Source: Gammaproteobacteria bacterium
Lineage (GTDB): Bacteria; Pseudomonadota; Gammaproteobacteria; DSM-19610
Assembly (NCBI GenBank): GCA_026197075.1
Contig: JAPHQV010000054.1
Coordinates: 1 to 39,939 of the forward strand
Length of the DNA stretch: 39,939 bases
Direction of reading: 5' to 3'
Each line of letters opens with the position of its first letter. Positions within the stretch are counted from its first letter, which is position 1. This document shows positions 2,419 to 31,879 of this stretch, in pieces. The notes beneath the pieces were generated by a model. It searched no databases, was not told the DNA's origin, and saw nothing but the letters and a program-made list of their open reading frames with translations. The position numbers were made by a program, and so were the translations under genes.

Positions 2419-2915
2419 TTTTCCCTTCTGCTTCGCACACCACCCACCCCCGTCATCGCGAGCCACCCGTCATTGCGAGCGAAGCGAAGCAATCTCCCAA
2501 AGCCCCCTCCAACCCCGTTTCTTGACCCCAAGCAAAACCCCTTAAGGCTTGAATCTCCACAGACATTGCGAGACCCTTACCCCAAGCCAAATAAAGCAGG
2601 CATGACTGATTCCGCGCTCCCCAACCCCCGGAGCTTGCGCCAGGCATGAAAAAGAATGAATCGGCGTATCCAGTGAACTTGTGCATCCTCATTCCGTCGG
2701 CTGAAATGCCGAACCCGGATAACTGTGCGCGCCTGAGCACCATGCTTTGTAGGGGTAGGATCTGGCGGGCATGACAGCTTGCCTGGAGGTGATGGCGATG
2801 CTTCGGATGCTAGACAGAATTGGTCATTCGCATGAATAGACCGACACAGCCTATCACCCAATATAGCTAATTTATGCGAATCGGCCTATTAAGCTGCTGG
2901 GCGGGAGCAAAGAAT
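2419..2915. other. Noncoding junction region with dispersed repeat
   Basis: No gene can be supported between the tRNA fragment and the membrane protein start. Bases 2469-2498 hold the dispersed motif CATTGCGAGCGAAGCGAAGC followed by AATCTCCC, with a degenerate partial copy just before it (2452-2467). The rest is mixed-composition sequence with short overlapping frames on both strands and no homology I recognise. Confidence 0.55.
2469..2498. repeat. Dispersed CATTGCGAGCGAAGCGAAGC repeat
   Basis: This motif and its AATCTCCC tail are familiar as a dispersed intergenic repeat in many bacterial genomes. It sits 50 bp beyond the tRNA-Arg fragment, in what should be chromosomal flank or a neighbouring element. 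Confidence 0.6.
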
Positions 2916-3344
2916 ATGCATACTGAAACAGTCGCAAGCGGCCGTCCTGGCTGGGTATGGGCGATCTCGATCTTCTTTGGGGTATCAGCTGGATGGACAC
3001 TTCTATCCTTTGCATTGATTCGCTCAGGAGCCGTCACACTCAACGCGGCGCAGATCGCGTATTTTGATAGTCTCAGCCCTTTAGACTACATATTCAGCAT
3101 CGGTATAGGGCTGGCAAACTTGCTCGGCGCCATCTCGCTCCTCCTGCTTCGAAAGATTGCTTTCTATCTCTTCGCATCGGCGTTAGTGGCCAATCTTCTG
3201 ATGACCCTGTGGCATATCGCGGCTAAGGGCTGGGTAGCAGCGATAGGAGATACGGGGTTGGTTGGCGCAATCATCGGCTTAGGCTTGCTGGTTATCGTCT
3301 GCGTGTATAGCCGCCGCCTTTTGAAACGAGGCGTTCTACGATGA
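2916..3344 (+). CDS. Small four-helix membrane protein, unknown function
   Basis: A 142-residue hydrophobic protein with four predicted membrane helices (near residues 13-33, 52-74, 76-98 and 112-134) and a basic C-terminus (YSRRLLKRGVLR). I chose the ATG at 2916 because GGGAG at 2902-2906 is well placed; an in-frame ATG at 2874 would add 14 polar residues with no clear ribosome binding site. No family recognised. It lies 100 bp upstream of the TIR/2TM gene on the same strand, so co-transcription is possible, but a functional link is inference only. Confidence 0.65.
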   Translation: MHTETVASGRPGWVWAISIFFGVSAGWTLLSFALIRSGAVTLNAAQIAYFDSLSPLDYIFSIGIGLANLLGAISLLLLRKIAFYLFASALVANLLMTLWHIAAKGWVAAIGDTGLVGAIIGLGLLVIVCVYSRRLLKRGVLR

Positions 3345-3444
3345 CGCGTTTGCTCAACACGTGGCTGCAGGCGACTTGCGAAGACACTCGCGTCCGTGGC
3401 GTCTCGTTAGCCAAGCCAGAACTCAAAAGAAAAGGTTAGCGGAT

Positions 3445-4131
3445 ATGGGAGATTTCCGACCTGCCTCATTGTTTATTTCTTACAGTCATAAGGATAAGCG
3501 CATAGTTTACCCTCTAGTCGATATGAATGAAGACCTACAGCGTGCAGCTTGGGTGGACTACCTGCATACAACACCTGGTAGTGACTGGAATGAAGAGCAT
3601 AAGAGCGCAATTAAACGCTCTTATCGGTTAATACTTCTCTGGTCTGTAAATTCGGCCCAATCAAAAACTGTAGAAAAAGAATGGAGATGGGCGCTTAAGT
3701 GTGGAACGCAAATCGTTCCTGTGCTGCTTGATGAGACTCCATTACCCCCAGAAGTATCACATCTTCACGGTGTTTCGCTGAAAGATTATGTGGTTACTCG
3801 TAGGGGAGGTCTCTCGCTAGGTCGTTTCCCGCCGTCGGAATGGATGGGGCTTGGTTCTGCATTCGATGTACTAGTGTTAATCATGAGTGCGCCATTATTT
3901 TTTGCTAGCGGTTGGCTGTTCTTGGAAGGTATTAGCCATGATTGGATTATTGTGAATATTCTAGCTTGGATATGTTTACCATTTTTTGCTTGGTATGCTT
4001 TAAATGCGGTGTTGCAAATCCCATTTCTAATCAAAAGGGGGAGACTCCGGCATCGCTTATCTAGGATTGTGGTTGAAAATCTGAAGGAGTGGGCGCGAGA
4101 AAACAGGGTGGCCCAACAAAAAGATGGCTAA
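3445..4131 (+). CDS. TIR domain protein with two C-terminal membrane helices
   Basis: A 228-residue protein. Residues 7-125 form a TIR domain: the first strand is SLFISYSHKDK, and the segment S73-x-x-V-x-x-E79-W matches the region holding the catalytic glutamate of NAD-cleaving TIR enzymes, making E79 the likely catalytic residue. Two membrane helices follow (about 138-162 and 167-194), then a basic, amphipathic tail. The ATG at 3445 follows AAAGG at 3431-3435; a GTG at 3361 in the same frame would add 28 residues unlike a TIR start. Such TIR proteins are common in phage defence, where NAD+ is consumed or turned into a signal. It is upstream of the TIR-TIR-SLATT cassette but separated by about 380 bp containing a repeat, so it may be independent. 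Confidence 0.8.
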   Translation: MGDFRPASLFISYSHKDKRIVYPLVDMNEDLQRAAWVDYLHTTPGSDWNEEHKSAIKRSYRLILLWSVNSAQSKTVEKEWRWALKCGTQIVPVLLDETPLPPEVSHLHGVSLKDYVVTRRGGLSLGRFPPSEWMGLGSAFDVLVLIMSAPLFFASGWLFLEGISHDWIIVNILAWICLPFFAWYALNAVLQIPFLIKRGRLRHRLSRIVVENLKEWARENRVAQQKDG

Positions 4132-4180
4132 TAGGTGGGCCTATCCGACGTCAAACTCTTCGCTGCGCTACGCGTTTTCC

Positions 4181-4261
4181 GATAAAAGGGGACACGATAA
4201 AAGGGGACAGATTTATTAGAAGCGGAGAAAAGGGGAAAACGCAAATAAATCTGTCCCCTTT
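4181..4261. repeat. Inverted repeat of the AAAAGGGGACAGATTTATT family
   Basis: AAAAGGGGACAGATTTATT (4199-4217) and its complement AATAAATCTGTCCCCTTT (4244-4261) face each other across 26 bp. A partial direct copy, GATAAAAGGGGACA, precedes it at 4181. Sequences of this type are found in REP-like elements and around REP-associated (IS200-like) transposases; no transposase gene is present here. A further copy lies at 6386-6405, on the other side of the TIR-TIR-SLATT cassette. Confidence 0.85.
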
Positions 4262-4514
4262 GGCGAGAAAATTGTGACTATGAATCCTTATCTTGGACAT
4301 TAGAGGCTTTTCAAATGATAGATATTGCAGGCGATTACGTGGAGGGTTGACGTGGTATCTTGAATACATGGGGTTTTGGGCTTGATCTCGATAAATTGCG
4401 ATAAGAAACCATCTGATCGCGAAAAGCTACCTGTCATGTCTTTTGCAGAGCAAATGCCGCGCCAGAATCTTTGTCCGGTAAGTAGGGGCGTAATTCACTA
4501 AATGGAGAGTCTGG
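4262..4514. other. Leader region of the TIR-SLATT cassette
   Basis: AT-rich sequence without a credible gene. A TTGACG at 4347-4352 lacks a convincing -10 at the usual distance, so I do not call a promoter, but transcription of the cassette most likely begins in this stretch. Confidence 0.4.
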
Positions 4515-4979
4515 ATGGTGTTCCCCGTAGCATATGCAGCAGTGGCAGGGGTTATTGGTATTGCGGGTTATTTGTATATAAATGGAAGGCCAACAAAAGT
4601 TTTTATTAGCTATCACTCTAAGGGGGACGGTCACTTTAAAAATATGATAATGGCATGGGCTAATAATGAAAAATTCAAACTCAATATTGAAGATTTCTCA
4701 ACAGATACGAATATAAAAAGCAAGGATGAGGCATACCTAAAGAGGCGGATGAGAGAGCAGATCAGAAAAGCCGACAATTTTATAGTGTTTATAGGTAAAG
4801 ATACGCATAAGAGGCCGTGGGTAGCCTGGGAAATCGAACAGGCTAAAGCCTTAAGTAAAAGAATTATTGCCGTAAAAGAAAATAGGAAACATATATCACC
4901 AAAGCCATTGCTGGGTAGTGGAGCTATTTGGGTCTACGGATTTTCAGCGAATGGCATACGGAACGCATTGAACACGTAA
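4515..4979 (+). CDS. Membrane-anchored TIR (ThsB-like) protein
   Basis: A 154-residue protein with one N-terminal membrane helix (residues 4-22) and then a TIR-like domain (28-152). The first strand is KVFISYHSKGD; the W102-V-A-W-E106 segment gives E106 as the probable catalytic glutamate. The fold and length resemble the Thoeris ThsB/DUF1863 group, although ThsB itself normally has no anchor. The ATG at 4515 follows GGAGAG at 4504-4509. Codon use is clearly AT-rich (some stretches about 35% GC by eye), unlike the GC-rich genes after 7300, which points to transfer. It is the first gene of a cassette: 37 bp separate it from the second TIR gene. Likely role: an NAD-dependent signal producer or sensor in phage defence (inference). 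Confidence 0.8.
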   Translation: MVFPVAYAAVAGVIGIAGYLYINGRPTKVFISYHSKGDGHFKNMIMAWANNEKFKLNIEDFSTDTNIKSKDEAYLKRRMREQIRKADNFIVFIGKDTHKRPWVAWEIEQAKALSKRIIAVKENRKHISPKPLLGSGAIWVYGFSANGIRNALNT

Positions 4980-5016
4980 AGCGAGAATGCAAAAAGAGAT
5001 AGAAAAGGAAATATGA

Positions 5017-5448
5017 GTGAGCACAAAACAAATACATGTTTTTGTAAGCCATTCATGGGCATATTCCAATCACTATACAACGCTGGCAGATTGGATTTTC
5101 AATAGGAGCTGGAGGGTTGGGCAGGCTTCATTAGATTTCAGGGATTATTCTGTCCCCCAGAATAACCCAATACATAATGCCAATAACGACGCTCAACTAC
5201 GGCGCGCACTCTACAACCAAATCTCCAAGAGCCACGTTATAGTGATTCCGACGGGAATGTATGCTAGTTACAGTAAATGGATACAAAAAGAAATTGATGG
5301 GTCGAGTATTTACGGCAAGGCTATTTTGGCGGTAAATCCATGGGGTGCCAAGAGGACTTCTGCAGATGTAAAAGATGCAGCAAGCAAAGTTGTAGGGTGG
5401 AATGCAGAGTCTGTTGTCGGCGGCATATGGGAGCTATACAAGCTGTGA
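5017..5448 (+). CDS. ThsB-like TIR domain protein
   Basis: A 143-residue soluble protein consisting of one TIR-like domain of the Thoeris ThsB type. Visible features are the first strand HVFVSHSWAYSNHY, the DYSVPQNNPIH motif (43-53) typical of ThsB-like proteins, and SYSKWIQKEIDGS, where E92 takes the place of the catalytic glutamate. In Thoeris, ThsB senses infection and makes a cyclic ADP-ribose-type signal from NAD+ that switches on ThsA. The start is GTG 5017 with AAGGA about 7 bases upstream; the nearby ATG at 5013 is out of frame. Its stop overlaps the GTG of the SLATT gene by four bases, so the two products are translationally coupled. No ThsA (SIR2-SLOG) gene is visible. Confidence 0.85.
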   Translation: MSTKQIHVFVSHSWAYSNHYTTLADWIFNRSWRVGQASLDFRDYSVPQNNPIHNANNDAQLRRALYNQISKSHVIVIPTGMYASYSKWIQKEIDGSSIYGKAILAVNPWGAKRTSADVKDAASKVVGWNAESVVGGIWELYKL

Positions 5449-6329
5449 GCGAAATCAAGGTAACAGAAAGTGATATGCCTGGTTTGTATCAATCTGCCGA
5501 TCAAGCTTCGCTCGATGCGCAAAAAATATATTTTAGAGGGCTAAGGTGGTACCTCATCCTATTAGTATGCGCGGCGTATATTTCGTATGCCCAGCCTAAT
5601 GACATTATTGGCGCTCTACTGTCTGCTGGGCTTTTTTTAATTACTCTTGGAATCCTAATTTTTATCCGTGTACAACGGCCTGATGATACTTGGTATAACG
5701 GAAGAGCCGTCGCTGAGTCTGTTAAGACAAGAGCTTGGAGATGGATGATGAGGGCCGACCCATACGAAGATTGTGATAACATTGAGATTGTATCAAAACA
5801 ATTTATCAGTGATCTAAAAGCAATACTTGAGCAAAACAAGAGCCTTTCTCATTCGCTTCAGTCCACAAGCGCCGTCAAAGACCCAGTATCACATTCAATG
5901 AAAGTCATTAGGGCTCTCCCGGTCGCAGATAGGCTCGCACTCTATGTCGACCAAAGAGTCCAAGATCAAGTTGAGTGGTATTGGCAAAAATCGCACTTTA
6001 ATAAGCGTCGAGCTCAACAATGGTTTTGGGTGTCTGTCTCGTTGCATGGTGCCGCTATTGCTATGTTGTTGTATCGAATAAATGACCCAACTCTTTCTCT
6101 TCCGGTTGAGGTTATTGCTACCACGGCAGGTGCAGCCTTCACGTGGCTTCAAGCAAAGAAGCATAACGAGTTGAATTCAGCCTATGCCATGACTGCTCAT
6201 GAGATAGTTCTCATAAAGGGTGAATCGGCTTCAGTCCATGGCGAAGAACAGCTATCGGAGTACGTGGTCAATAGTGAAACTGCGTTCTCTAGAGAACATA
6301 CCCAGTGGGCAGCCCGTAAGAGTAATTAA
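5445..6329 (+). CDS. SLATT/DUF4231 four-helix membrane protein, putative effector
   Basis: A 294-residue protein with two pairs of membrane helices: about 34-49 and 54-74, then 193-211 and 220-236. The second half carries the DUF4231/SLATT_1-type signature YVDQRVQDQVEWYWQK (167-182) just before its helix pair; the first half (VQRPDDTWYNGRAVAESVKTRAWR) fits a SLATT_3-like unit. SLATT proteins are predicted membrane effectors that respond to nucleotide signals and damage the membrane, usually beside SMODS cyclases or SLOG sensors. Here the partner is a ThsB-like TIR whose stop codon overlaps this GTG start (5445), with GGGAG at 5429-5433. In-frame ATGs at 5427 and 5475 are alternatives. The likely role is pore formation triggered by a TIR-made signal (inference). 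Confidence 0.8.
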   Translation: MSEIKVTESDMPGLYQSADQASLDAQKIYFRGLRWYLILLVCAAYISYAQPNDIIGALLSAGLFLITLGILIFIRVQRPDDTWYNGRAVAESVKTRAWRWMMRADPYEDCDNIEIVSKQFISDLKAILEQNKSLSHSLQSTSAVKDPVSHSMKVIRALPVADRLALYVDQRVQDQVEWYWQKSHFNKRRAQQWFWVSVSLHGAAIAMLLYRINDPTLSLPVEVIATTAGAAFTWLQAKKHNELNSAYAMTAHEIVLIKGESASVHGEEQLSEYVVNSETAFSREHTQWAARKSN

Positions 6330-6385
6330 TGAATAACAATGCCATTAAATCCGACGCTCGTTCCTCGAGCGCTTTATGGAACGGC

Positions 6386-6437
6386 AAAAGGGGACAGATT
6401 TATTTGACAGCAGCAATGTGATCAAGGGGTCAGAGTA
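6386..6437. repeat. AAAAGGGGACAGATTTATTT repeat plus GGGGTCAGAG motif
   Basis: Bases 6386-6405 repeat the arm found at 4199-4217, here as a single copy. Bases 6424-6436 (AAGGGGTCAGAGT) share their first 12 bases with the hairpins at 13206 and 26165. The pair lies just downstream of the SLATT gene and so closes the bracket around the cassette. Apart from these motifs, the 300 bp between 6330 and 6630 hold nothing I recognise. Confidence 0.75.
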
Positions 6438-6630
6438 CTTGAACCTACCTGAGTAGAGAAAATGCATGCCCAGCTGTATGTTCGAGAACAATAACAATGC
6501 AGGCAATAGCTCCATGCTGTGCGCCGCTTACCTTTCTATTAGAAGTCATTGAAAATCTGCGGCTTATTGGTCGTTGAAATCCTTTGGTAAGGGTTATAGT
6601 GTAGATGTATGGCTTGATGAGGAAACGGCA

Positions 6631-6861
6631 ATGTCAGTTACGTTGAAAGACGTTGAGAATCAGGTGGAGCAGCTAACGGAAGATGATCGAGCTCTGTTGG
6701 TAGAGCACCTGATCCGCTCCCTTGACTCTGGTGAGGATGTAGATGCTGAAAAAGCCTGGTTAGATGAAGCCGAAAGGCGGTACCAGGAATACAGAGCAGG
6801 GAAGCTCACTTCAAAAGCTGCAGACGCAGTATTTGAAGATGTGCTATCAAACCTTAAATGA
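6631..6861 (+). CDS. Addiction module antitoxin (Unstab_antitox family)
   Basis: A 76-residue acidic protein matching the short 'putative addiction module component' family (TIGR02574-like): it starts MSVTLKDVENQVEQLTEDD, continues LLVEHLIRSLD, and ends with a charged helix containing an AWLDEAERRYQEYRAGK-type segment. These proteins neutralise RelE/ParE-like toxins. TGAGGA at 6618-6623 selects the ATG at 6631; an ATG at 6574 would add 19 residues untypical of the family. Its stop overlaps the toxin start (ATGA at 6858), giving the usual antitoxin-first order and coupling. Confidence 0.85.
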   Translation: MSVTLKDVENQVEQLTEDDRALLVEHLIRSLDSGEDVDAEKAWLDEAERRYQEYRAGKLTSKAADAVFEDVLSNLK

Positions 6862-13233: not shown

Positions 13234-14727
13234 TCATTTGGAAAACTCGAACCGGGCCATGGCCTGGTAGTCGGCCGGAGCCTGGACCGCCGCGCCTTCC
13301 GTCTCGGTCTGCTGGTAGCGGCCACTCAGGGAAAGCTGGATCCCCGGTGCATGAACCCGTGGAGTACGCAGGGTCCAGGAGAGCGAGCTTTCGATGCCCA
13401 ACATACGGGTGTCCGGCGCCGTGTCCTTACCATACTGGTGGCTTGCCAGCAGCACCACGCGCGCCTTGAGTCGCTTGCGCATGAGGGTGGCGGAGCTGCC
13501 CAGTGAACCCGTGACCATGGTGCGCTGATCTTTACCCGAGGGACCTTCGAGCCTGCCCCAGCTGATCTCGGGCATGAGGCTGAGCCGTTCGCCCAGAGGC
13601 AGATGCAGCCGCAGACTGGTGGAGTCATTGCCGTTCAACAACATCCCTGACCCCGCCTCGTAGGTGGCGGCATAGGCGTGACCGAGTTCCCACCACCAGG
13701 GCCCTGGGGCAAAGTGCGCGCTCAGGTTCGCGCTCTCCGTATAAAGATCGGCAGCGGCATTCCCCCCGCTGGCGTAACCGGTCCACTGCCGTTGCATGGC
13801 CAGGCGATAGCGCATCGCCCCGAACCATGCCCCCTTGCCGGGCATCCAGGCGGGAACCGATGCCTGGTAGTTCAACTCGGCGGCCTGGGTATCCAGGCGC
13901 AACGCCGGGTGGCCGTCCGGGCGGACCTCGTTGGCACGGCTGTAACTGACCCTGGCGTTCAGGGTGCCCCAGCCGAGATGCCCCGCGGCCCGGTCCACCA
14001 CCCGCTCCCGGGCATGATCCAGGTTGGCCAGGCTCCAGTACCCGGCGTCGGCGTAGGCGCGGCTGAACTCGAGGCCCCAGCGGGATGGCCGCCCGGCGAG
14101 ATTGGAAGGCGTGCCCTGGTAACGGGCCAGCAGGCTATGGGCCGCGCCTCCCTGCCGCGCTGGCGGGCCGGCTTGCTCCTGGATCTGGTGGCTCACCGCA
14201 TACTCGCCTTGCAGTAACAGCCGGTTGTCCAGCATGCGACGATTCGCGGCCAGGCTCCAGACATTGTTCTGGCCACTCGTCTGACCGGGGCCCGTGCCGC
14301 CGACCACCTGTTTTATGTGCATCGCCTCGAGGGCCATACCTCCAGCCGTGGGTGCGAACGGCTGGAACCGGGTCCCCATGCCATGGATGCGGCGCTCTTC
14401 ATCCAGGAAGCGCACGCCCGCTCCACCCCCGGAAAGATTGTCACCATGGCCCGGAAACCCCGTCAGCCGGGAGCGCAGCACCGGTACGTTTTCGCCAGGG
14501 TCGGCCGCGGACAGTTCCGGGAGCAGGAGGCCGTCGACGGGATGCTCCCCGGCCTGCGAAGTGCCGGTGCTGTACAGGAGGAAGCCCTGCACGACCAGCA
14601 GCAGGAGCAGGGCAAGTGACTGGCCTGTCGGGAATTTTTGGGTCGACGGGGTGCGGTGTCTGGGTCCAGGGGAAAGGCTGTGCCGGATCATGGGTATTGA
14701 AAGCCCCTGGGGACATTCGGCTGTCAT
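13234..14727 (-). CDS. Probable outer-membrane beta-barrel protein
   Basis: A 497-residue protein. A hydrophobic signal segment (ALLLLLVVQGFLLY) ends near ...TSQAGE at about residue 60, so the first 35 residues may be an over-extended start; an ATG at 14691 (residue 13) is the alternative. The mature part alternates polar and aromatic residues in strand-like runs (RWGLEFSRAYADAGYW, WWWELGHAYAATYEAG, RLSLMPEISWGRLEG) and ends ADYQAMARFEFSK; a penultimate aromatic strand of this type is typical of outer-membrane proteins, though the last residue is K rather than F. No family recognised. It is divergent from the AI-2E transporter gene. Confidence 0.65.
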   Translation of the reverse strand: MTAECPQGLSIPMIRHSLSPGPRHRTPSTQKFPTGQSLALLLLLVVQGFLLYSTGTSQAGEHPVDGLLLPELSAADPGENVPVLRSRLTGFPGHGDNLSGGGAGVRFLDEERRIHGMGTRFQPFAPTAGGMALEAMHIKQVVGGTGPGQTSGQNNVWSLAANRRMLDNRLLLQGEYAVSHQIQEQAGPPARQGGAAHSLLARYQGTPSNLAGRPSRWGLEFSRAYADAGYWSLANLDHARERVVDRAAGHLGWGTLNARVSYSRANEVRPDGHPALRLDTQAAELNYQASVPAWMPGKGAWFGAMRYRLAMQRQWTGYASGGNAAADLYTESANLSAHFAPGPWWWELGHAYAATYEAGSGMLLNGNDSTSLRLHLPLGERLSLMPEISWGRLEGPSGKDQRTMVTGSLGSSATLMRKRLKARVVLLASHQYGKDTAPDTRMLGIESSLSWTLRTPRVHAPGIQLSLSGRYQQTETEGAAVQAPADYQAMARFEFSK

Positions 14728-16023: not shown

Positions 16024-17367
16024 CTATACACAAGAGCCCGGTGGCGACATGAGGCCCTCAAGGCTGGGGTTCCAGGAAAAACCAAGCTCTGGGCAATTAT
16101 CACAGCCTGTTTGTTTCTGGCAGATATCCAGCGTGCATTTCACGTCGCCGATGAGTCCCAAGTAGATACGTGGCAGGTGGTGGCTCATGATCCCCTTGAT
16201 CATCATCAGGTCGCCGTCGTGTAAATGGGTCTTGAGGAAAGCGGTCGTCTCTGCCGTGGTTGCGAAGGCATGACTATGCGCGGCATCGAAGCCTGCGGCG
16301 AGCGCCGCCTTGTGTGCACGCTGGGCGACGGGGCCGACAAAGACCGCCACATCGGCGCAACGCATGACCATCTGCCCCATGGCCTTTGCGCGCGCCGGGG
16401 TGCGCAGGTTTGAGTCGGAGAAGTCGCTGATAACGAGGATCTTGCGCTTGGCATGTGCTTCTTCCATGAACTTCAGCGAGACCTCGAAGGAGTCGAGCTG
16501 TCCGTGGCTATCCTCGCGAATAATGGTTGCGCCATAGGCCGGCAAATATACCGGTTGCATCCGCGACCAGAATGGCTCGATGGATCGGATGGTATCGATG
16601 GCATCGTGGAGTTCCACGCCGCACTGGCTGGTGGTGGCCAGTGCGGCCAGCACGGTCGGGGTCCAGTGGGTGCCGAGCAGCCGCGTCTGTACTTCGTGGG
16701 TCTCTCCCTGCGCGGTAATGGTGAGCTTGAGGCGTTCCGGCCATCTGGATTCTGCCTTGAGCAAGTGATAATCAACCGGCTCGGTTTCGCCAAAGCGGAT
16801 GATGCGGGTTTTTGCCGGTACGGCAGCAATGGTGAGCTGGGCGTTATCCTGGTTGATGATGGCGCAGCCACCGGGGCGCATGTGCCTCAGCAGTTGGGAT
16901 TTTTCCTGCGCGACGGCCTCCGGGGTCGGGAATGACAGGGTATGGGAACGTTTCACGTTGGTGATCACCACAATGTCGGGCTTGATGAACTTTGCCGCGG
17001 ATTCCATGTTGCCGGGCTTTTCGGCGCCCACCTCGAGGACCGCGAATCGGTGCCATGGCCTGGTGCGCAGGATGGCCATTTCCGGGCCCTTGAACTTGCG
17101 GTGATTCCAGTTGCCGATGGTCTTGCTGACGGCATACTTGCGCGCCAGGATGTCGGCGATGAATTCCTTGGTGGTGGTCTTGCCGAAGCTGCCCGTGATG
17201 GTGATGAAGGTGGTGTTGAACAAGAGCCGCCGCCAGAGGTACGCGGCTGAAATGATCAGCTGGTTTCTGAGGGTAGTGGTAATCAGCCGGCCGCTGTTCC
17301 TGCCACGCAATATCCAGTAGATATTCTTGATTCCAAGGATGATTTTTTGTGGCATTGCCTGCTTCAT
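16024..17367 (-). CDS. MurF-like Mur ligase without the UDP-MurNAc domain (copy 2)
   Basis: A 447-residue ATP-dependent ligase of the Mur family. The P-loop TGSFGKTTTKEF is at about residues 58-69, some 50 earlier than in MurF, so the UDP-sugar-binding N-domain is missing. Instead there is a basic, partly hydrophobic segment (LRNQLIISAAYLWRRLLFN). The central ATPase domain (AVLEVGAEKPGNM, NVKRSHTLSFPT) and the C-terminal ligase domain (SRMQPVYLP, ILVISDFSDSN) are present. The tail carries a four-cysteine cluster (CTLDICQKQTGCDNCP), perhaps a metal site. It follows its paralogue by two bases in one operon. The substrate is unknown: an acid joined to an amine by an ADP-forming step, not necessarily peptidoglycan. 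Confidence 0.82.
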   Translation of the reverse strand: MKQAMPQKIILGIKNIYWILRGRNSGRLITTTLRNQLIISAAYLWRRLLFNTTFITITGSFGKTTTKEFIADILARKYAVSKTIGNWNHRKFKGPEMAILRTRPWHRFAVLEVGAEKPGNMESAAKFIKPDIVVITNVKRSHTLSFPTPEAVAQEKSQLLRHMRPGGCAIINQDNAQLTIAAVPAKTRIIRFGETEPVDYHLLKAESRWPERLKLTITAQGETHEVQTRLLGTHWTPTVLAALATTSQCGVELHDAIDTIRSIEPFWSRMQPVYLPAYGATIIREDSHGQLDSFEVSLKFMEEAHAKRKILVISDFSDSNLRTPARAKAMGQMVMRCADVAVFVGPVAQRAHKAALAAGFDAAHSHAFATTAETTAFLKTHLHDGDLMMIKGIMSHHLPRIYLGLIGDVKCTLDICQKQTGCDNCPELGFSWNPSLEGLMSPPGSCV

Positions 17368-17369
17368 CC

Positions 17370-18698
17370 CTAGACCGATGAGCCTGGCGCTGCGCGGAAG
17401 GGAGCCATGTCATGCGTCCATTCAAAGCCAAGGTCGGGGCACCGGTCGCACAGGATCTGTTTCGAACAGGACGGTAATGAGCAGGTCACCTCCCCGAGCA
17501 AGCCGAGGTAGACCCTGGACAGGTGATGGTTCGCTTGTCCCTTGATCAGCACCAGGTCACCTTCGCGTAATTCCTTCTTCAGGAAGTCGATCGCATCGGA
17601 AAGATTGAAAAAGTCATGGACAGATTCAGGGTCCATGCCGGCTTCGATCGCGCTTTGTGTGGAGCGATCCGCATAATCGCCAACGAACACCGCGTGATCT
17701 GCGTGCGTCGCCGCGATCTTCCCCAGGTAGTTGGCGCGGCTACGCAGTTTTTTCCTGGAGTCGGAGAAGTCGCTGAATACCACGATCTTGCGCGTGGCTT
17801 CGGCATCTTGCAGGAATTGCAAGGCAACCTCGAAGGTGTCGATGGAACCATTCCAGTCATCACGGATGATGGTCGCCTTGTTGGGCAGGGTGATTGGCTG
17901 CATTCTCGCCCAGAAGGGCTCGATGGTGCGGATGGCCTTGATTGCATCAGGAATGCTGATGCCGCACTCATGCGCGGCCGCCAGGGATGCCATGATGGTA
18001 TTGCTCCAATGCGTGCCGATCAGGCGTGTTTCGACCTTGTAGTGGTTGTTGTTGTGGGAAACGGCAAGTGTAAGGCGTTCAGGCCATCTGGATGTGGCAT
18101 TCAGCATGCGGAATTCGGCCTGCTCGTGGGTGCCAAAGCTGATTATCCTGGCCTTGGTGACAGCGGCCATGGCTGCCACATGGTTATTGTCATTATTGAG
18201 GACCGCGCAGTCGCCTTTGTCCAGCGCCTTTACCAGCTGTGATTTCTCCTCGGCGATGGACTCGAGCGATTTGAAGACATTGGTGTGACAATGCTTGATG
18301 TCGAGCACGACCGCCATGTCCGGTTTGAGGAACCTGGCCGCGGAGGCCATGTCGCCGGGCTTTTCGATACCCAGCTCGACGACGGCATATCGATGCCAGG
18401 GGCGTGTTTTCAGTATGGTTTCTTCGAGCCCCTTGAAGCGCCGCAGGTTTGCGTTGCCGGGCGTCTTCATGACGGGGTAGTGCTGCGCGAGGATATCGGA
18501 CAGGAATTCCTTGGTGGTGGTTTTGCCGACGCTGCCGGTGATGGCGATAAAAGTGGTGTTGAATAGCAGCCGGCGCCAGAGATAGGCGGTTGCAATCAAT
18601 AGCTGCTTGCGCAGGTAGGCGGATACAGCCCGCGTGCTGTTATTCCCCCTTGCGAACCAGTAGATGTTTTTGAGTTGTTGTATTTTTCTTGTGAGCAT
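17370..18698 (-). CDS. MurF-like Mur ligase without the UDP-MurNAc domain (copy 1)
   Basis: A 442-residue paralogue of the following gene, alike along its whole length (shared: KNIYW at the start, AYLWRRLLFNTTFI, GKTTTKEF, TRPWHR, RWPERL, FWARMQP / FWSRMQP, a C-terminal cysteine cluster CSLPSCSKQILCDRCP). The P-loop is TGSVGKTTTKEF near residue 56, so it too lacks the N-terminal UDP-MurNAc domain. It is the promoter-proximal gene of the pair. A tandem duplication kept with both P-loops intact suggests two successive or alternative ligations in one pathway, or a heteromeric enzyme (inference). No other dcw-cluster gene is nearby, which argues against a normal MurF. Confidence 0.82.
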   Translation of the reverse strand: MLTRKIQQLKNIYWFARGNNSTRAVSAYLRKQLLIATAYLWRRLLFNTTFIAITGSVGKTTTKEFLSDILAQHYPVMKTPGNANLRRFKGLEETILKTRPWHRYAVVELGIEKPGDMASAARFLKPDMAVVLDIKHCHTNVFKSLESIAEEKSQLVKALDKGDCAVLNNDNNHVAAMAAVTKARIISFGTHEQAEFRMLNATSRWPERLTLAVSHNNNHYKVETRLIGTHWSNTIMASLAAAHECGISIPDAIKAIRTIEPFWARMQPITLPNKATIIRDDWNGSIDTFEVALQFLQDAEATRKIVVFSDFSDSRKKLRSRANYLGKIAATHADHAVFVGDYADRSTQSAIEAGMDPESVHDFFNLSDAIDFLKKELREGDLVLIKGQANHHLSRVYLGLLGEVTCSLPSCSKQILCDRCPDLGFEWTHDMAPFRAAPGSSV

Positions 18699-18887: not shown

Positions 18888-20552
18888 GTGACCTCCACTC
18901 CACGATACCACGTAAGCCTGTTCCTGTTGTCCCTCAGCCTGCTGGGTGGCTGTGGTTCTCCCGGTGTAGTGCCGCTGGAAGCGCCCGCCGCACCCGCCGT
19001 GGCAACGGCCCCCATCCCATTGCACGAGGAAATCCAGCGTCTGCTGGAACAGGCCGCTGCGGGGGTGCCCTGCTGCGCACTGGACTGGTCGCGCCAGGAG
19101 CGCTTCTATGAACAGCAGGCCTACCTGCCGGTGTGGTGGAATCCTCTGACCGGACAGCGCAAGCCGGCCGCCGATGATCTGCTGGAGATTCTGGCGCAAA
19201 GCCCGCGTCACGGACTGGATCCGGCCGATTACCATGTGGACACCCTGCGTGCGTATTGGTCCGTGAGCGAGCCGGCGGGTATCGCCATGCGCGACCTGTT
19301 GCTCACCGATGCCTTTCTTGCTTATGCGCGCCATCTGCACAGCGGTCGGCATGCGCCGCGTGCATTGGATCCCGGCTGGCGCATCGAACGCCAGCCACTG
19401 GATGCCGGTGAGTTGTTGCGCCGTGTGGTGGACGGTGCCGACTTTCGTGCACAGGTCGAACGCCTGGCGCCTCTGCACAGCGGCTACCATCGCCTGCAAG
19501 TCAGCCTGCAGCAATATCAACAGCTCGCGGCGGCTTCCCCCTGGCCGCTGGTCGTCGGCGGGCCTTTGCTGCGTCCGGGTGAACGGGATATTCGGGTGCG
19601 CGACCTGCGCGAGCGGCTGCGCCTGGAAGGCTATTCCGTGGGCGAGGGATATGATGACTTTCTCTACGATGCGGACCTGGAGGCGGGCGTGAAGCAGTTC
19701 CAGCTACGGCATGGCCTGAAGGTCGACGGGGTGCTGGGCGCGGGTACGGTGGCCGCGTTGAACGTCAGACCGGAGCAGCGTATCTGGCAGATCCTGCTCA
19801 ACATGGAGCGCTGGCGCTGGCTGCCGCGTGATCTGGGTGAGCACTACCTGATGGTGAACATGGCGGGCTTCAATCTGCGGGCCGTGGAGCAGGATCGTAC
19901 CCGGCTCGACATGCGGGTGATCATCGGCACGGCCTACCGTTCCACGCCGGCCTTCATCGGGCGGCTCAACCACCTGGTGGTGAACCCGGAGTGGAACGTG
20001 CCGAAGACCATCCTGCGCGAGGACATCGTTCCCCGCCAGCGTGAGAACCCGGATTACCTGGCGAGCCAGCGTATCCAGGTGCTGGATGGATGGCAGCCCG
20101 GTGCGGAGGAGATCGACCCCGCGGCTGTCGATTGGCAGGCCATCGATCCCACGCGCTTTCCCTATCGCCTGCGCCAGAAGCCGGGCCCCACCAACAGCCT
20201 GGGCCGCGTGAAGTTCATGCTGCCCAACGAATACGACATCTATCTACACGACACACCCAACCGACAGCTGTTCGCGGAAACGGTGCGCACCTTCAGTTCC
20301 GGTTGCATTCGCGTGGAGCAGCCGCTGGAACTGGCCGAGTACCTGTTGGCCAGTGGCGGAAAATGGGATACGGAGCAACTGCGTGCGCTGATCGAGAGCG
20401 GTGTCACGCGTACCATCCTCCTGCCGGAGGTCATCCCGGTCTACATCCTCTATTGGACGGCCTGGGTCGACGACGAGGGTCGGACCCACTTCGTGGATGA
20501 TATCTATGGCCTGGACCGGAGCATGCTGGGGGATAGCGCAAGCCCGCGTTGA
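18888..20552 (+). CDS. ldtD: LdtD/YcbB-type L,D-transpeptidase, lipoprotein
   Basis: A 554-residue periplasmic enzyme that forms 3-3 cross-links in peptidoglycan. The signal peptide ends in a lipobox (LSLLGGC), so it is probably a lipoprotein, unlike E. coli LdtD. Then follow the YcbB scaffold domain, a peptidoglycan-binding domain (VRDLRERLRLEGY, FQLRHGLKVDGVLGAGTVAALN) and the YkuD catalytic domain: strand LNHLVVNPEWNVPKTI, the conserved YLHDTPNRQLF and the active-site motif FSSGCIRVE with the catalytic cysteine. The length is close to E. coli LdtD (about 615). The start is GTG with no clear ribosome binding site. A MepK-type endopeptidase, which cuts the bonds this enzyme makes, lies 2 kb away, separated by an opposite-strand SulP gene. 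Confidence 0.92.
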   Translation: MTSTPRYHVSLFLLSLSLLGGCGSPGVVPLEAPAAPAVATAPIPLHEEIQRLLEQAAAGVPCCALDWSRQERFYEQQAYLPVWWNPLTGQRKPAADDLLEILAQSPRHGLDPADYHVDTLRAYWSVSEPAGIAMRDLLLTDAFLAYARHLHSGRHAPRALDPGWRIERQPLDAGELLRRVVDGADFRAQVERLAPLHSGYHRLQVSLQQYQQLAAASPWPLVVGGPLLRPGERDIRVRDLRERLRLEGYSVGEGYDDFLYDADLEAGVKQFQLRHGLKVDGVLGAGTVAALNVRPEQRIWQILLNMERWRWLPRDLGEHYLMVNMAGFNLRAVEQDRTRLDMRVIIGTAYRSTPAFIGRLNHLVVNPEWNVPKTILREDIVPRQRENPDYLASQRIQVLDGWQPGAEEIDPAAVDWQAIDPTRFPYRLRQKPGPTNSLGRVKFMLPNEYDIYLHDTPNRQLFAETVRTFSSGCIRVEQPLELAEYLLASGGKWDTEQLRALIESGVTRTILLPEVIPVYILYWTAWVDDEGRTHFVDDIYGLDRSMLGDSASPR

Positions 20553-22586: not shown

Positions 22587-23141
22587 ATGGATTGTAGTAT
22601 GAGTATCTTGTTGAAAAGACGTGAATTATTGAAAGGCTGCCTGGGCCTGGGCGCCATCCTGGCGGCACCTTCCGTCCTGGCCGGCGCCATTTCCCCGGCG
22701 CAGCGCAGCCTGGCGCTGCGCAACCTGCACACCGGCGAACGGGCCGCCGTCACCTATTGGGCCGATGGCGACTATGTCAGCGATGAGCTGCTGTCCGTCA
22801 ACCAGGTGCTGCGTGACCATCGCAGTGGCGAGGTCTATCCCATCGATGCCAGCCTGCTGGACCAGCTTTACCTGCTGCAGCACAAGCTGGGCACCGACCG
22901 CGCCTTCCATGTGATCTCCGGCTACCGCTCCCCGGCCAGTAATGCAAAGCTCAGTGCCAACAGCAATGGTGTCGCCAAGCGCAGCCTGCACATGCAGGGC
23001 CGGGCGATCGACATCCGCCTGCCCGGGGTGAAGCTGGCTCACCTGCGCCAGGCGGCGCTGGACCTGAAGGCCGGCGGCGTGGGCTATTACCCCAAATCCG
23101 ATTTCATCCATATCGACACCGGCCGGGTACGCTTCTGGTAA
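22587..23141 (+). CDS. mepK: MepK/YcbK-type murein endopeptidase (DUF882, M15 fold)
   Basis: A 184-residue exported protein. The N-terminus has a Tat-type signal (KRRELLKGCLGLGAILAAPSVLAG). The catalytic domain carries the M15/DUF882 zinc motifs: ISGYRSPASN, SLHMQGRAIDIRLPG (the H and D are metal ligands) and the C-terminal FIHIDTGRVRFW with H as the third ligand. E. coli MepK cuts the 3-3 cross-links made by L,D-transpeptidases and is encoded beside ldtD; the same association is seen here. The start may be 22587 or the ATG at 22599; neither has a strong ribosome binding site. Confidence 0.92.
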   Translation: MDCSMSILLKRRELLKGCLGLGAILAAPSVLAGAISPAQRSLALRNLHTGERAAVTYWADGDYVSDELLSVNQVLRDHRSGEVYPIDASLLDQLYLLQHKLGTDRAFHVISGYRSPASNAKLSANSNGVAKRSLHMQGRAIDIRLPGVKLAHLRQAALDLKAGGVGYYPKSDFIHIDTGRVRFW

Positions 23142-26903: not shown

Positions 26904-26932
26904 CATTAAAATAATGCTCTCCTATTTTAATG
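26904..26932. promoter_or_regulatory. 10-bp inverted repeat, candidate TetR operator
   Basis: CATTAAAATA (26904-26913) and TATTTTAATG (26923-26932) are perfect inverted copies with a 9-nt spacer. The site is 69 bp upstream of the TetR start and 92 bp before the TauE/SafE-like gene. TetR dimers bind inverted repeats of about this size, so this is the best local operator candidate. Confidence 0.5.
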
Positions 26933-27023
26933 ATGGTAGATGGATAATTTGAGCTGGGTGCCGGGATGACGGATCTGGCCATTCCGGGTACAGTGGCGCG
27001 CATCCTTCGCCAAGCCCGTTCCC

Positions 27024-27761
27024 ATGGAAAGCATCAGCTGGGTTCCCTTCACCATCGGCCTGTTCAGCGCCGTGCATTGCGTGGGCATGTGCGGCGGGAT
27101 CATCGGTGCCCTGAGCATGAGCCTGCCGGCCCGGGTGCGGGACAGTCGCTGGCGTCTGTCCCTGTACCTGCTGGCCTACAGCCTGGGGCGGGTCAGCAGC
27201 TATGCCCTGGCCGGGGCCCTGATCGGGGTGGTGGGGCAGCAGCTGTTCGATTTCATCAGCCCCCAGTACGGCCATCGCATCATGCAGGCCTTCGCGGCCC
27301 TGCTGCTGGTGGGCATCGGCCTGTACCTGGCGGGCTGGTTCCCGCGCTTCGCCCAGCTGGAGCGCATCGGGGTGCCCCTGTGGCGACGCCTCGAACCCCT
27401 GGGCCGACGGCTGCTTCCCGTGAAATCGCCATTCCATGCCCTGGCTTTCGGGTTGGTGTGGGGCTGGCTGCCTTGCGGACTGGTATATTCCACTCTGTTG
27501 TGGGCAGCGGCGGCGGGCACGGCGGGGCAGGGTGCCCTCTACATGGCGCTGTTCGGGCTGGGCACGCTGCCGGCGGTCATGGGCGCCGGTCTGCTGGCGG
27601 GCTGGCTCACCCGCTTTGCCCGCCAGCCACGCGTGCGCCAGGTGCTGGGGGGCTTGCTGGTGGTGATGGCGCTGGGTACGCTCTGGTACCAGGGGCAGGT
27701 GGTCGACCACTCGGCCCATGGGCCCGGGCATGAGCATCATCAGCATGAGGCTGTGGATTGA
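27024..27761 (+). CDS. TauE/SafE (DsbD-like) family membrane protein
   Basis: A 245-residue inner-membrane protein with six or so helices. Key features are the N-terminal HCVGMCGGIIGAL motif and a second WGWLPCGLVYSTL motif; the paired cysteines C19 and C23 and the lone PC in the fourth helix are typical of the DsbD_2/SafE group found beside cbb3 oxidase genes and linked to copper or heavy-metal handling. The C-terminus is histidine-rich (HSAHGPGHEHHQHEAVD), which supports metal binding. The FNR-type site at 27758-27771 overlaps its stop codon and serves the next gene. No cco genes are in the window. Confidence 0.85.
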   Translation: MESISWVPFTIGLFSAVHCVGMCGGIIGALSMSLPARVRDSRWRLSLYLLAYSLGRVSSYALAGALIGVVGQQLFDFISPQYGHRIMQAFAALLLVGIGLYLAGWFPRFAQLERIGVPLWRRLEPLGRRLLPVKSPFHALAFGLVWGWLPCGLVYSTLLWAAAAGTAGQGALYMALFGLGTLPAVMGAGLLAGWLTRFARQPRVRQVLGGLLVVMALGTLWYQGQVVDHSAHGPGHEHHQHEAVD

Positions 27762-27799
27762 CCTGACTCAAGTCCCGATTGGATTTGATTTATTAGAAT
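27758..27799 (+). promoter_or_regulatory. FNR/CRP-type site with matched -10
   Basis: TTGACCTGACTCAA (27758-27771) fits TTGA-N6-TCAA, the core shared by FNR, ANR and DNR sites. TAGAAT (27794-27799) begins exactly 22 bp beyond the site, which places the site centre at -41.5: the class II activation geometry. The sigma-54 activator gene starts 86 bp further on. Confidence 0.6.
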
Positions 27800-27884
27800 G
27801 TAATGGCACTGAATCGGTCTTTTTTTCGTCGTGCGCGAGCAGGGGCATGACGAACTGGGGAATGCGTAACCAACGGAGCGCCGT

Positions 27885-28844
<960 letters not shown>

Positions 28845-28862
28845 GCACGGTGTGACTTGCAT

Positions 28863-28964: not shown

Positions 28965-30149
28965 GTGCTGCAATCCATGCAAGTGGGGATCGTGACCGAA
29001 ACCTTCCGACCCGAGGTCAATGGGGTCGCCATGACCCTTGGCCGATTGGTGGATGGCCTGCTCGAACGCGGTCACCGTATACAGATCATTCGCCCGGCAC
29101 AGGGGCGCAATGACCGCGCAGCGGTGAACGGCAGCCTGCGCGAGCATCTTGCCCCGGGTTTCCGCATCCCCTTCTATCCCGATATGCACACCGGTCTGAT
29201 CAGTCGGATGCGCCTGCGTCGGTTGTGGTGCGAGTTCCGGCCCGATGTATTGTACGTTGCCACGGAAGGTCCTCTGGGCCGTGCGGCGGTACGCCAGGCG
29301 GCTGCCTGGAACATCCCGGCCCTGAGCGGGTTTCACACCCAGTTCGCGCACTACAGTCGACATTACCGCCTGGGCTGGCTGGAACCCATGGTGGAGCGTT
29401 ACCTGCGAACTTTTCACCGCTCCACGGCCTGCACACTGGTGCCGACCCGGGATTTGCAACGACAGTTGGAGGAAAAGGGGTTTGGCCGGGTTGAGGTGTT
29501 GTCCCGTGGCGTGGATTGCAGTTTGTTTCACCCGCGTCGGCGCAGCGCGGACCTGCGCGCCGCGTGGGGCCTGGCGGACAACGAACTCGCCGTGCTCTAT
29601 GTGGGGCGGCTGGCGGCGGAAAAGAACCTGGAGGATGCCGTGGCCGCCTTCGAGGCGATCCAGTGGGAACAGCCCACGGCGCGTTTCGTGCTGGTGGGCG
29701 ATGGTCCGGAACGCGCGCGGCTGGCTGTCGAGCATCCCGAGTTCATATTCTGTGGCACACAAACCGGTGAGTCTCTTGCGCATCACTATGCCTCGGCGGA
29801 CCTGTTCCTGTTTCCCAGTCGCACCGAGACCTTCGGTAACGTGGTGCTGGAGGCGATGGCGTCGGGCCTGCCGGTGGTGGCCTATGACTACGCGGCCGCG
29901 GCCCAGCATATGGCCGGAGGCCAGGCCGGCATGGCCGTCCCCCTCGAGGATCCCGCAGGCTTCACCCGTGCGGCACTGAGGCTGTCGCGCAGTCCGCTGC
30001 TGCGCGCGCGCATTGGCAGCCTGGCATGTGAGCAGGCCTGCCGCGTGGACTGGGCCGACGTCGTGACGCGATTCGAAACGCTGTTACACCAGTATGGGGC
30101 AAGGGGGCAACGTGCACGCAATGCAGCAAGCCTGGCAATGGTTCGGTAA
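28965..30149 (+). CDS. GT4 family glycosyltransferase, probable lipid glycosyltransferase
   Basis: A 394-residue GT-B enzyme. The N-terminal half has the acceptor-binding start GIVTETFRPEVNGVAMTLGRL, typical of glycosyltransferases acting on diacylglycerol or phosphatidylinositol. The C-terminal half has the nucleotide-sugar site: LYVGRLAAEKNLED, LVGDGPER and the E-x7-E motif in SRTETFGNVVLEAMASGLPVV. It contains no membrane helix and would act at the inner face. It is the first gene of an operon with a PAP2 phosphatase and a second GT4. The GTG at 28965 follows AGGGTG; an ATG at 28977 is an alternative. A PhoB-type site lies upstream. The sugar donor and acceptor cannot be read from sequence. 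Confidence 0.88.
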   Translation: MLQSMQVGIVTETFRPEVNGVAMTLGRLVDGLLERGHRIQIIRPAQGRNDRAAVNGSLREHLAPGFRIPFYPDMHTGLISRMRLRRLWCEFRPDVLYVATEGPLGRAAVRQAAAWNIPALSGFHTQFAHYSRHYRLGWLEPMVERYLRTFHRSTACTLVPTRDLQRQLEEKGFGRVEVLSRGVDCSLFHPRRRSADLRAAWGLADNELAVLYVGRLAAEKNLEDAVAAFEAIQWEQPTARFVLVGDGPERARLAVEHPEFIFCGTQTGESLAHHYASADLFLFPSRTETFGNVVLEAMASGLPVVAYDYAAAAQHMAGGQAGMAVPLEDPAGFTRAALRLSRSPLLRARIGSLACEQACRVDWADVVTRFETLLHQYGARGQRARNAASLAMVR

Positions 30150-30648
30150 GTGGGACCTGTCCCTCTGCCTGTCCTGCAACCGCCTGGGACGTTTCTGGCC
30201 GATCACCGGCCTGTTGCGCATCTGCAGTCGTCTGGGTGACGGGGTATTCTGGTACAGCCTGATGGCTGTGCTCCCCCTGGCCTATGGCTGGCAGGGCCTG
30301 CAGGCCTCCTTGCATATGCTGCTGGTGGCCGTTCTGGGACTCATGGTCTACAAGTGGCTGAAGACGCGCACCGTGCGTCCCCGCCCCTGTGCCGTAAGCC
30401 AACATGTCACCCAGCATACGACGGCTCTGGATCAGTTCAGTTTCCCCTCCGGCCATACCCTGCACGCCGTCTGCTTCAGCACGGTGCTGCTTGCCTATTT
30501 CCCGGGCCTTGTGTTGCTCGTGGTGCCTTTCACCTTGCTGGTGGCGATCTCGCGTCCGGTACTTGGCCTGCACTATCCCAGCGACGTGCTCGCCGGTGCC
30601 GCCATTGGATACCTGCTGGCCAGTGGGAGCCTCCTGTTACTGGTCTGA
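30112..30648 (+). CDS. PAP2 family membrane phosphatase
   Basis: A 178-residue protein with about five helices and the three PAP2 motifs: KWLKTRTVRPRP, FSFPSGHTLHA and SRPVLGLHYPSDVLAG, with the catalytic histidines present. Such enzymes remove phosphate from phosphatidic acid, phosphatidylglycerol phosphate or undecaprenyl pyrophosphate on the outer side of the membrane. Between two lipid-type glycosyltransferases, phosphatidate to diacylglycerol is the attractive reaction, since it would supply their acceptor (inference). The gene overlaps the end of the first GT4. AAGGGGG at 30102-30108 favours GTG 30112; ATGs at 30094 and 30121 are in the same frame. Confidence 0.88.
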   Translation: MHAMQQAWQWFGKWDLSLCLSCNRLGRFWPITGLLRICSRLGDGVFWYSLMAVLPLAYGWQGLQASLHMLLVAVLGLMVYKWLKTRTVRPRPCAVSQHVTQHTTALDQFSFPSGHTLHAVCFSTVLLAYFPGLVLLVVPFTLLVAISRPVLGLHYPSDVLAGAAIGYLLASGSLLLLV

Positions 30649-30676
30649 CGACCCGGCAGGCGGACACTACCCACCC

Positions 30677-31879
30677 ATGCGTATCCTGATGGTTTCGGAT
30701 GTGTATTTTCCCCGTGTCAACGGGGTGTCGACCTCCATCGCCACCACGCGCAAGACACTGCACGATCTGGGTCACCGCACCACTCTGGTTGCTCCTGCCT
30801 ATCCCGGTGCCGATAGCAGTTCCCATGCTCCCGGTGATGTGCTGTTTCGTGTGCCGGGGCGTCGTGTGCCCTTCGATCCCGAGGACCAGTTGATGCGCTG
30901 GGGCAACCTGCGTCGCCTGGGTGAACACCTGAATGCAGATGACTATGATGTGATCCACATTCACACCCCCTTCATGGCGCATCGCCTGGGTGTGTGGCTG
31001 GGACGACGCTGGGACGTTCCCGTTGTGGAGACCTACCACACATTCTTCGAGGAGTACCTGCACCACTACCTGCCGATCCTCCCGTCCTCTCTGGCACGTG
31101 CAGTGGCGCGCCGGCTTTCGCGCAATCTGCAGCGTGGCGTGGATGGCTTTGTGGTGCCCTCGAGCGCCATCGCAGCCGCGCTGCAGGACTATGGCATGGA
31201 TATCCCCTTGCGGGTGGTGCCCACCGGGTTGGATCTGGATGAATTCACTCCAGGTGATCGTTCTGCATTCTGCCAGCGTCACGGCCTGGACCCGGTACGG
31301 CCGATCCTGGTCTACGTGGGTCGCGTGGCCCACGAGAAGAACATCGGCTTTCTGCTCGAGGTGTTGGCGCGCGTGCGCAAGCGGGTACCCGAGGTGATAC
31401 TGATCGTTGCCGGTGACGGCCCTGCCAAGGCCTCGCTGCAACGCAAAGCGCAGCAGCTTGCGCTCGCGCGCAACGTACTGTTCATCGGCTACTTACCGCG
31501 CGGCCAGACCCTGTGGGATTGCTTTGCCGCGGGTGATGCCTTCGTGTTCGCATCAAAGACAGAGACCCAGGGTCTGGTGCTGCTGGAGGCCCTGGCACTG
31601 GGTGTTCCGGTAGTGTCCTATGCCGCGCTGGGTGCGCGGGATGTATTGGTACCTGGCTGTGGCGCGGTCATCGTGGAGGGCGGCGTGGAGGATTTTGCCG
31701 CCGATGTCATTAGCCTGCTGCGTGACCCGCTTCGTCGCAGCTGTCTGTCCGAAGAGGCTGTGCGCTATGCTCGTGACTGGTCCACGCACCAGACCAGCCA
31801 GCGCCTGGTGGCTTTCTACCGGGATGTGATCGATGGGCGCCGGAAGCAAGAGGCATGCGCGCTGTACGAGAATATCTAG
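30677..31879 (+). CDS. GT4 family glycosyltransferase, diacylglycerol type
   Basis: A 400-residue GT-B enzyme. The start MRILMVSDVYFPRVNGVST and the HIHTPFMAH and ETYHTFFEEYLHHY segments are characteristic of diacylglycerol glucosyltransferases and their PimA/MgtA-type relatives. The C-terminal domain has YVGRVAHEKNIGFLLE, AGDGPAK and SKTETQGLVLLEALALGVPVV, with both donor-site glutamates. It is related to, but clearly different from, the first GT4 in the operon, so the two may add successive sugars. It begins 28 bp after the PAP2 gene and converges with the OlsB-like gene. Confidence 0.88.
   Translation: MRILMVSDVYFPRVNGVSTSIATTRKTLHDLGHRTTLVAPAYPGADSSSHAPGDVLFRVPGRRVPFDPEDQLMRWGNLRRLGEHLNADDYDVIHIHTPFMAHRLGVWLGRRWDVPVVETYHTFFEEYLHHYLPILPSSLARAVARRLSRNLQRGVDGFVVPSSAIAAALQDYGMDIPLRVVPTGLDLDEFTPGDRSAFCQRHGLDPVRPILVYVGRVAHEKNIGFLLEVLARVRKRVPEVILIVAGDGPAKASLQRKAQQLALARNVLFIGYLPRGQTLWDCFAAGDAFVFASKTETQGLVLLEALALGVPVVSYAALGARDVLVPGCGAVIVEGGVEDFAADVISLLRDPLRRSCLSEEAVRYARDWSTHQTSQRLVAFYRDVIDGRRKQEACALYENI

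Follow-up and report, generated by a model that had tools for sequence, protein, structure and literature searches.

Within the window, the whole 39,939-nucleotide stretch of DNA analysed here (contig C51 of a 2.99 Mb gammaproteobacterial genome in 59 contigs), two genes encoding Mur-ligase-like proteins lie in tandem on the minus strand. Both open reading frames are intact, the gap between them is exactly 2 bases, and their products of 442 and 447 residues share 52% identity, in agreement with the two full-length paralogues two bases apart described in the initial annotation. The features of the pair, followed by two neighbouring genes listed for context only, are given below.

17370-18698, minus strand: P0002, the upstream copy, 442 residues, a MurF-like ligase without the UDP domain
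18555-18698, minus strand: P0002 N-terminus, residues 1-48 (AlphaFold model, charge and hydropathy, alignment)
17973-18542, minus strand: P0002 Mur middle (ATPase) domain with the P-loop, E108, H138 and K152 (Pfam, alignment)
18516-18536, minus strand: P0002 P-loop GSVGKTT, residues 55-61
17535-17906, minus strand: P0002 Mur C-terminal domain, residues 265-388, with R265, D280, R303 and an altered K-G-x motif
17439-17483, minus strand: P0002 Cys4 tail, C406-x4-C411-x5-C417-D-x-C420, a putative metal site (alignment)
16024-17367, minus strand: P0001, the downstream copy, 447 residues, a MurF-like ligase without the UDP domain
17212-17367, minus strand: P0001 basic N-terminus, net charge +9
16633-17199, minus strand: P0001 Mur middle domain (Pfam)
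17173-17193, minus strand: P0001 P-loop GSFGKTT, starting at residue 59
16192-16563, minus strand: P0001 Mur C-terminal domain (Pfam score slightly below the cut-off)
16093-16137, minus strand: P0001 Cys4 tail, CTLDICQKQTGCDNC
18888-20552, plus strand: L,D-transpeptidase of YcbB type (Scaffold, PG_binding_1 and YkuD domains), divergent from the pair
22587-23141, plus strand: MepK-type peptidoglycan L,D-endopeptidase (NF053624 above cut-off)

The Pfam domain Mur_ligase_M matches both copies, at 119.1 and 113.4 bits, and Mur_ligase_C is found at 56.8 bits in P0002 and at 27.8 bits, slightly below the 28.4 cut-off, in P0001; the Mur N-terminal domain gave no Pfam match in either protein at E values up to 0.1. 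The best NCBIfam model for the pair is murF, at 220.6 and 183.9 bits, below its curated cut-off of 288.6. Because the murF profile aligns to the two proteins only from profile position 60 onward, we conclude that the UDP-MurNAc domain is missing. The P-loop correspondingly starts at residue 55 in P0002 and 59 in P0001, compared with about 110-127 in MurF frames with an ordinary upstream part, so that the earlier description of a P-loop some 50 residues early, with no UDP-binding domain ahead of it, holds. The pair is also far from the dcw genes, as had been claimed: murC, murD, murE and murF lie together on contig C8 of the same genome, mpl on C38 and folC on C19. Since the genome carries these genes separately, the pair is additional to the normal set.

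An AlphaFold2 model of P0002, built on a 33-row alignment from which an outlying Gemmobacter relative was left out, has a pLDDT of 93.1 and consists of two N-terminal helices followed by the Mur middle and C-terminal domains. The closest solved structure is Acinetobacter baumannii MurF (4qf5; Z 35.2 over 383 residues, rmsd 3.7). The ATP/Mg core that the family shares with MurF (P-loop, E108, H138, K152, R265 and D280) is well preserved: G55, G58, K59, E108, H138 and K152 are kept in all checked rows, and R265 and D280 in nearly all. We take the position of K152 to be that of the lysine carbamoylated in Mur ligases. This complete ATP/Mg/lysine core, together with the predicted MurF fold, is consistent with the ATP-dependent amide formation put forward in the initial annotation. 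On the substrate side, the MurF motifs YNANP, GEMLELG and KGSR, near-invariant in 30 MurF sequences, are replaced, and other residues are near-invariant in the ligase family instead: W41-R42, RPWHR, W205-P-x-R-L, T224, R279, R303, H392, R395 and cysteines 406, 411, 417 and 420. With both the UDP domain and the second-substrate motifs of MurF absent, the suggestion that a different acid is used gains ground, and the substrate is probably not UDP-MurNAc-tripeptide.

The C-terminal cysteine cluster noted earlier is borne out by the alignment, in which the strict pattern Cx4Cx5CDxC fits 32 of 33 members; the tandem copies at one locus (L022) have x4 in place of x5 in the second gap, the spacing elsewhere being C-x4-C-x5-C-[D]-x-C. 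The window sequences at this site are CSLPSCSKQILCDRC and CTLDICQKQTGCDNC, the latter in P0001. A profile of the Cys4 tail matched no PDB sequence at E values up to 10, and the tail folded in isolation gave a poor model (pLDDT 69).

In the P0002 model the N-terminal helices span residues 2-16 and 19-44, and W41, R42 and R43 are conserved in the alignment. The N-terminal region carries a net charge of +9 in each window copy, and the family mean is +6.2 as against +0.4 in the matching region of MurF. The most hydrophobic 15-residue stretch averages only 0.97-1.01 on the Kyte-Doolittle scale in the window copies. Of the basic hydrophobic N-terminus proposed in the initial annotation, the basic and helical character therefore stands, whereas hydrophobicity was overstated for these two proteins. 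Given such modest peak hydropathy, an amphipathic or peripheral membrane helix would fit better than a clear transmembrane one.

A pattern scan over 85,000 species genomes returned full-length relatives, 37-52% identical, at about 19 loci, and all of them keep the short N-terminus and the Cys tail; the next matches fall to the MurF level near 30%. Whole-genome searches added G003 and G006, from the window's taxonomic family, and two other genomes in the class. In total there are about 40 relatives, mostly 37-52% identical, in Acidobacteriota, Pseudomonadota, Nitrospirota and Verrucomicrobiota, and one member (L171, genome G338), missed by the gene caller, was taken from the sequence of L099. 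Full-length members score 310-630 bits and all other matches at most 252. The 52% mutual identity of the pair and the recurrence of its architecture among relatives from several phyla indicate that the arrangement is more than chance. The distribution is sporadic: the window's class has the family in about 4 of 369 genomes, and the phylum to which G392 belongs in 4 of 199, and up to eight scattered copies occur in one acidobacterial (Bryobacteraceae) genome. A virus-borne origin was considered and set aside: the two relatives from viral contigs were weak and partial, and among phage records the best matches reached 26-30% identity over the Mur core, which is the MurF range. Base composition was likewise examined for signs of horizontal transfer; the pair (GC 0.56-0.59) is poorer in GC than its immediate neighbours, but window genes as a whole have 0.60 ± 0.065, and since the pair falls inside this scatter, composition alone is no proof of transfer.

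In a careful maximum-likelihood tree of 70 sequences, the ligase family forms one clade (support 100/98) and MurF a separate one (97/87), and the two together exclude MurE, MurC, MurD and Mpl (100/98). A long branch sets the Gemmobacter relative (L013) apart from the other members, and the MurF label of one row (L069), which falls with MurE, was taken to be an error. The split holds in a quicker tree with 20 more MurF sequences from the window's class, 49 in all (family 99, MurF 85 SH-aLRT). By these trees the ligase family is a sister clade to MurF, outside the MurF clade, and this placement argues that its members are not MurF proteins with a moved N-terminal domain. The position within canonical MurF that the initial annotation named as a refutation of its reading is therefore not the one observed. 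Profile scans of 33 members found generic Mur domains only, with no UDP-type N-domain in any of them and murF heading the NCBIfam list for every one. The single annotated relative to turn up carries no more than the label "Mur ligase family protein", none of the profile libraries used names the family, and the open-licence literature searched contained no description of it. The family is probably a rare and undescribed group whose amide ligases diverged from the MurF line.

Comparison with known ligases helps to define what is particular to this group. MurF is closest by profile, tree and structure and shares the middle and C-terminal fold and the ATP/lysine core; it differs in having the UDP-MurNAc domain and the YNANP, GEMLELG and KGSR motifs, and the pair differs in its Cys4 tail and new invariants. 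In PgsB/CapB a Mur core without a UDP domain follows immediately after a membrane segment at the N-terminus, an arrangement like that of the present family, whose N-terminal segment is basic. This shared architecture and a weak similarity to cyanophycin synthetase could point to a poly-amino-acid polymerase of either kind, a reading to which we give very little weight: no PgsB/CapB model of NCBIfam matched the pair at E values up to 0.1, cyanophycin synthetase models scored P0002 at 38-50 bits against cut-offs of 850-877, and MurF is the nearest family by profile, tree and fold. Across FolC, cyanophycin synthetase and CfbE, model scores were 20-50 bits against cut-offs of 163-877.

MurT offers a further parallel. 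It too is a Mur core without a UDP domain, its substrate is lipid II, and its authors argue that with such a substrate the UDP domain is needless and would clash with the membrane (PMC6113224). The likeness to the present family extends to a Cys4 site and, as a working model, to a membrane-linked acceptor (PMC6113224). The Cys4 zinc ribbon of MurT lies in the middle domain, whereas here the cysteines follow the C-terminal domain at residues 406-420. The MurT C-terminal model had no match at E values up to 0.1 in the 33 members, within the limits that HMMER filters set on weak matches, and Mur_ligase_C was found instead. MurT is partnered by the glutaminase GatD, whereas some of the ligase relatives adjoin AsnB, another fold, and MurT chains give structural Z scores of 24-26 against the model compared with 35 for MurF. 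On our best reading of this comparison, the pair would resemble MurT in logic and not in descent. The MurT precedent (PMC6113224) and the basic N-terminal helices together lend credence to the possible membrane association raised in the initial annotation.

The genes surrounding the relatives suggest what the ligases may act upon. An AsnB-type amidotransferase adjoins the ligase at 5 of 32 loci (G003, G006, G390, G393 and G396) against 0.34 expected (Poisson P = 3e-5, or 4e-4 with two close relatives counted once); at L095 the AsnB and ligase genes overlap. A sugar-transfer-associated ATP-grasp ligase (ATPgrasp_ST) adjoins it at L032 and lies two genes off at L014, ATP-grasp and GNAT genes lie upstream at L029, and a formyltransferase lies 1 base upstream at L161. 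The Gemmobacter copy is carried on a plasmid, where its surroundings include a formyltransferase, a pyruvyl transferase and glycosyltransferases. At several loci the presence of an AsnB, ATP-grasp or GNAT enzyme next to the ligase recalls NAGGN-type pathways, which combine a GNAT/ATP-grasp ligase with an AsnB-type amidotransferase; the AsnB proteins, however, score 307-368 bits against TIGR03104, below its cut-off of 570, that model has no Mur ligase, and the window has no such partners. At many loci the ligase stands alone or next to unrelated genes, and the window pair has no AsnB, ATP-grasp or GatD-domain neighbour and no biosynthetic cluster around it. Paired-CXXCH multihaem cytochromes occur near the ligase in two genomes (L164:2311-3333 and L028:8063-8989).

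Some of these neighbourhoods would suit a soluble peptide ligase whose acceptors are small peptides, nonribosomal or otherwise, and which joins amino acids or amines to them, any membrane contact being incidental. At L169 (5229-15640, minus strand), two single-module C-A-PCP-TE NRPS genes lie directly upstream of a tandem pair in what appears to be one operon; radical SAM/SPASM, methyltransferase and AMP-ligase genes are also among the neighbours of the family, and the many copies in the Bryobacteraceae genome would fit such secondary-metabolite tailoring. Only a single locus shows the NRPS link, however, and with no cluster around the window pair we regard this role as unlikely.

The window itself could be read as pointing to the cell wall, since the pair lies close to MepK and is transcribed away from the gene of a YcbB-type L,D-transpeptidase. 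A MurT-like enzyme might add an amino acid or amine to the stem-peptide carboxylate of lipid I/II or of recycled peptides and so serve the L,D-transpeptidase pathway of the window. MurT (PMC6113224), likewise without the UDP domain and acting on lipid II, lends this some plausibility, as do an S13 D-Ala-D-Ala carboxypeptidase near the ligase at L019, with a homologue at L021, and a transglycosylase/PBP about 48 bases from the ligase at L160. We nevertheless find modification of peptidoglycan precursors improbable. The YcbB-MepK adjacency is kept in several relatives in which the ligase pair is absent, so that YcbB next to the pair is weak evidence, and a cell-wall role drawn from these neighbours was rejected because it is their adjacency, and not the position of the pair, that is conserved. 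Moreover, peptidoglycan is nearly universal but the family is found in so few genomes of the class, and at other loci most neighbours are not cell-wall genes.

Other features of the window and its genome were recorded in passing. An AI-2E family gene is convergent with the pair. A 497-residue open reading frame at 13234-14727 (minus strand) has a signal-like hydrophobic stretch near its start and no Pfam or NCBIfam match at E values up to 0.1. About 10 kb from the pair, at 28965-31879 (plus strand), a GT4 glycosyltransferase gene is followed by a related paralogue, and beside them are two open reading frames without a Pfam match (26922-28862, minus strand). A low-GC stretch at 2874-6861 (genes of 0.45-0.53 GC against 0.60-0.67 nearby) carries genes for a protein with a TIR domain (3361-4131) and for one with SLATT_3/SLATT_1 domains and two transmembrane segments (5340-6329); TIR and SLATT domains are often met in anti-phage defence islands. 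On contig C19 (32187-51256) three asparagine-synthetase-type genes, none near the pair, lie within 20 kb, possibly as an exopolysaccharide cluster.

Most family loci are single-copy, and adjacent same-strand copies occur at seven: the window, L015, L017 (three copies), L022, L028, L169/L025 and G574. In the tree the copies of the window, L015, L017 and L022 group by locus, and approximately unbiased (AU) tests reject upstream/upstream and downstream/downstream clades for the window and L015 (p = 7e-4 and 2.5e-5). The duplications of the window and of its nearest tandem relative, L015, thus appear to be independent, although gene conversion could mimic locus-wise grouping of tandem copies. Because these two pairs duplicated separately, a conserved A/B pair is unsupported, and an ancestral heteromer from one old duplication is rejected for the window and L015. 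The initial annotation's step from the duplication to two related substrates or a heteromer is not supported as it stood, since tandem copies arose repeatedly within lineages. We also considered a functional heteromer, with one copy catalytic and the other diverged and regulatory, which would account for the repeated tandem duplication. P0001 has the ATP-side motif REDSHG where P0002 has RDDWNG (D280E and N283H) and a longer branch (0.53 vs 0.27), and in the downstream copy of L028 the P-loop is changed to GKSI and N84 is missing. Such an arrangement is nonetheless highly unlikely in our judgement, since no consistent A/B split is seen, the L017 and L022 copies cluster by locus, the ATP core is intact in both or all copies of L015, L017 and L022, and most loci manage with one copy. 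Sub-functionalisation of the window copies is possible, as the two substitutions in P0001 may indicate.

With moderate confidence, we propose that these proteins are MurF-derived, membrane-acting amide ligases for a lipid-linked glycan or peptide, or a free peptide, with a metal-binding Cys4 tail. Mur ligases convert a carboxylate and ATP to an acyl phosphate, which an amine then attacks, and the present enzymes would likewise activate a substrate carboxylate and join an amine. Given that there is no nucleotide-sugar domain, the substrate would be either a glycan or peptide intermediate carried on a lipid and presented at the membrane, or a peptide in free form. We infer a membrane-sited acceptor from the loss of the UDP domain and the basic helices, with MurT as precedent, and the N-terminal helix would dock the ligase there. 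The neighbours of the relatives suggest that these ligases could usually serve to tailor intermediates of exopolysaccharides or secondary metabolites with amide groups, often together with an AsnB-type amidotransferase. The Cys4 tail may bind a metal (Zn2+ or an Fe-S cluster) that supports the structure or helps to dock a partner, and the window pair would be a lineage-specific tandem duplicate in which both copies probably perform related chemistry. Several points count against this proposal: at many loci, that of the window included, the ligase lacks such partner genes beside it, the members may not all share one role, and the window-copy helix is too weakly hydrophobic for a clear membrane anchor. 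More tentatively, the family might constitute a separate class of MurF-derived, metal-tailed ligases that make amide bonds on glycans or peptides linked to the membrane but not part of peptidoglycan; horizontal transfer would have scattered the family, and repeated tandem duplication would have diversified it, each copy having its own amine or acid.

Few antibacterial targets have been studied as closely as the Mur ligases, and each of the rare departures from their UDP-substrate plan (MurT, PgsB/CapB, cyanophycin synthetase, CfbE) opened a pathway. A clade beside MurF in which the catalytic core is intact, substrate recognition is lost and a new conserved Cys4 site is present would be a natural experiment in how the substrate specificity of MurF can be replaced. 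It also offers a testable enzyme family that may decorate envelope glycans or acidobacterial metabolites with amide groups.
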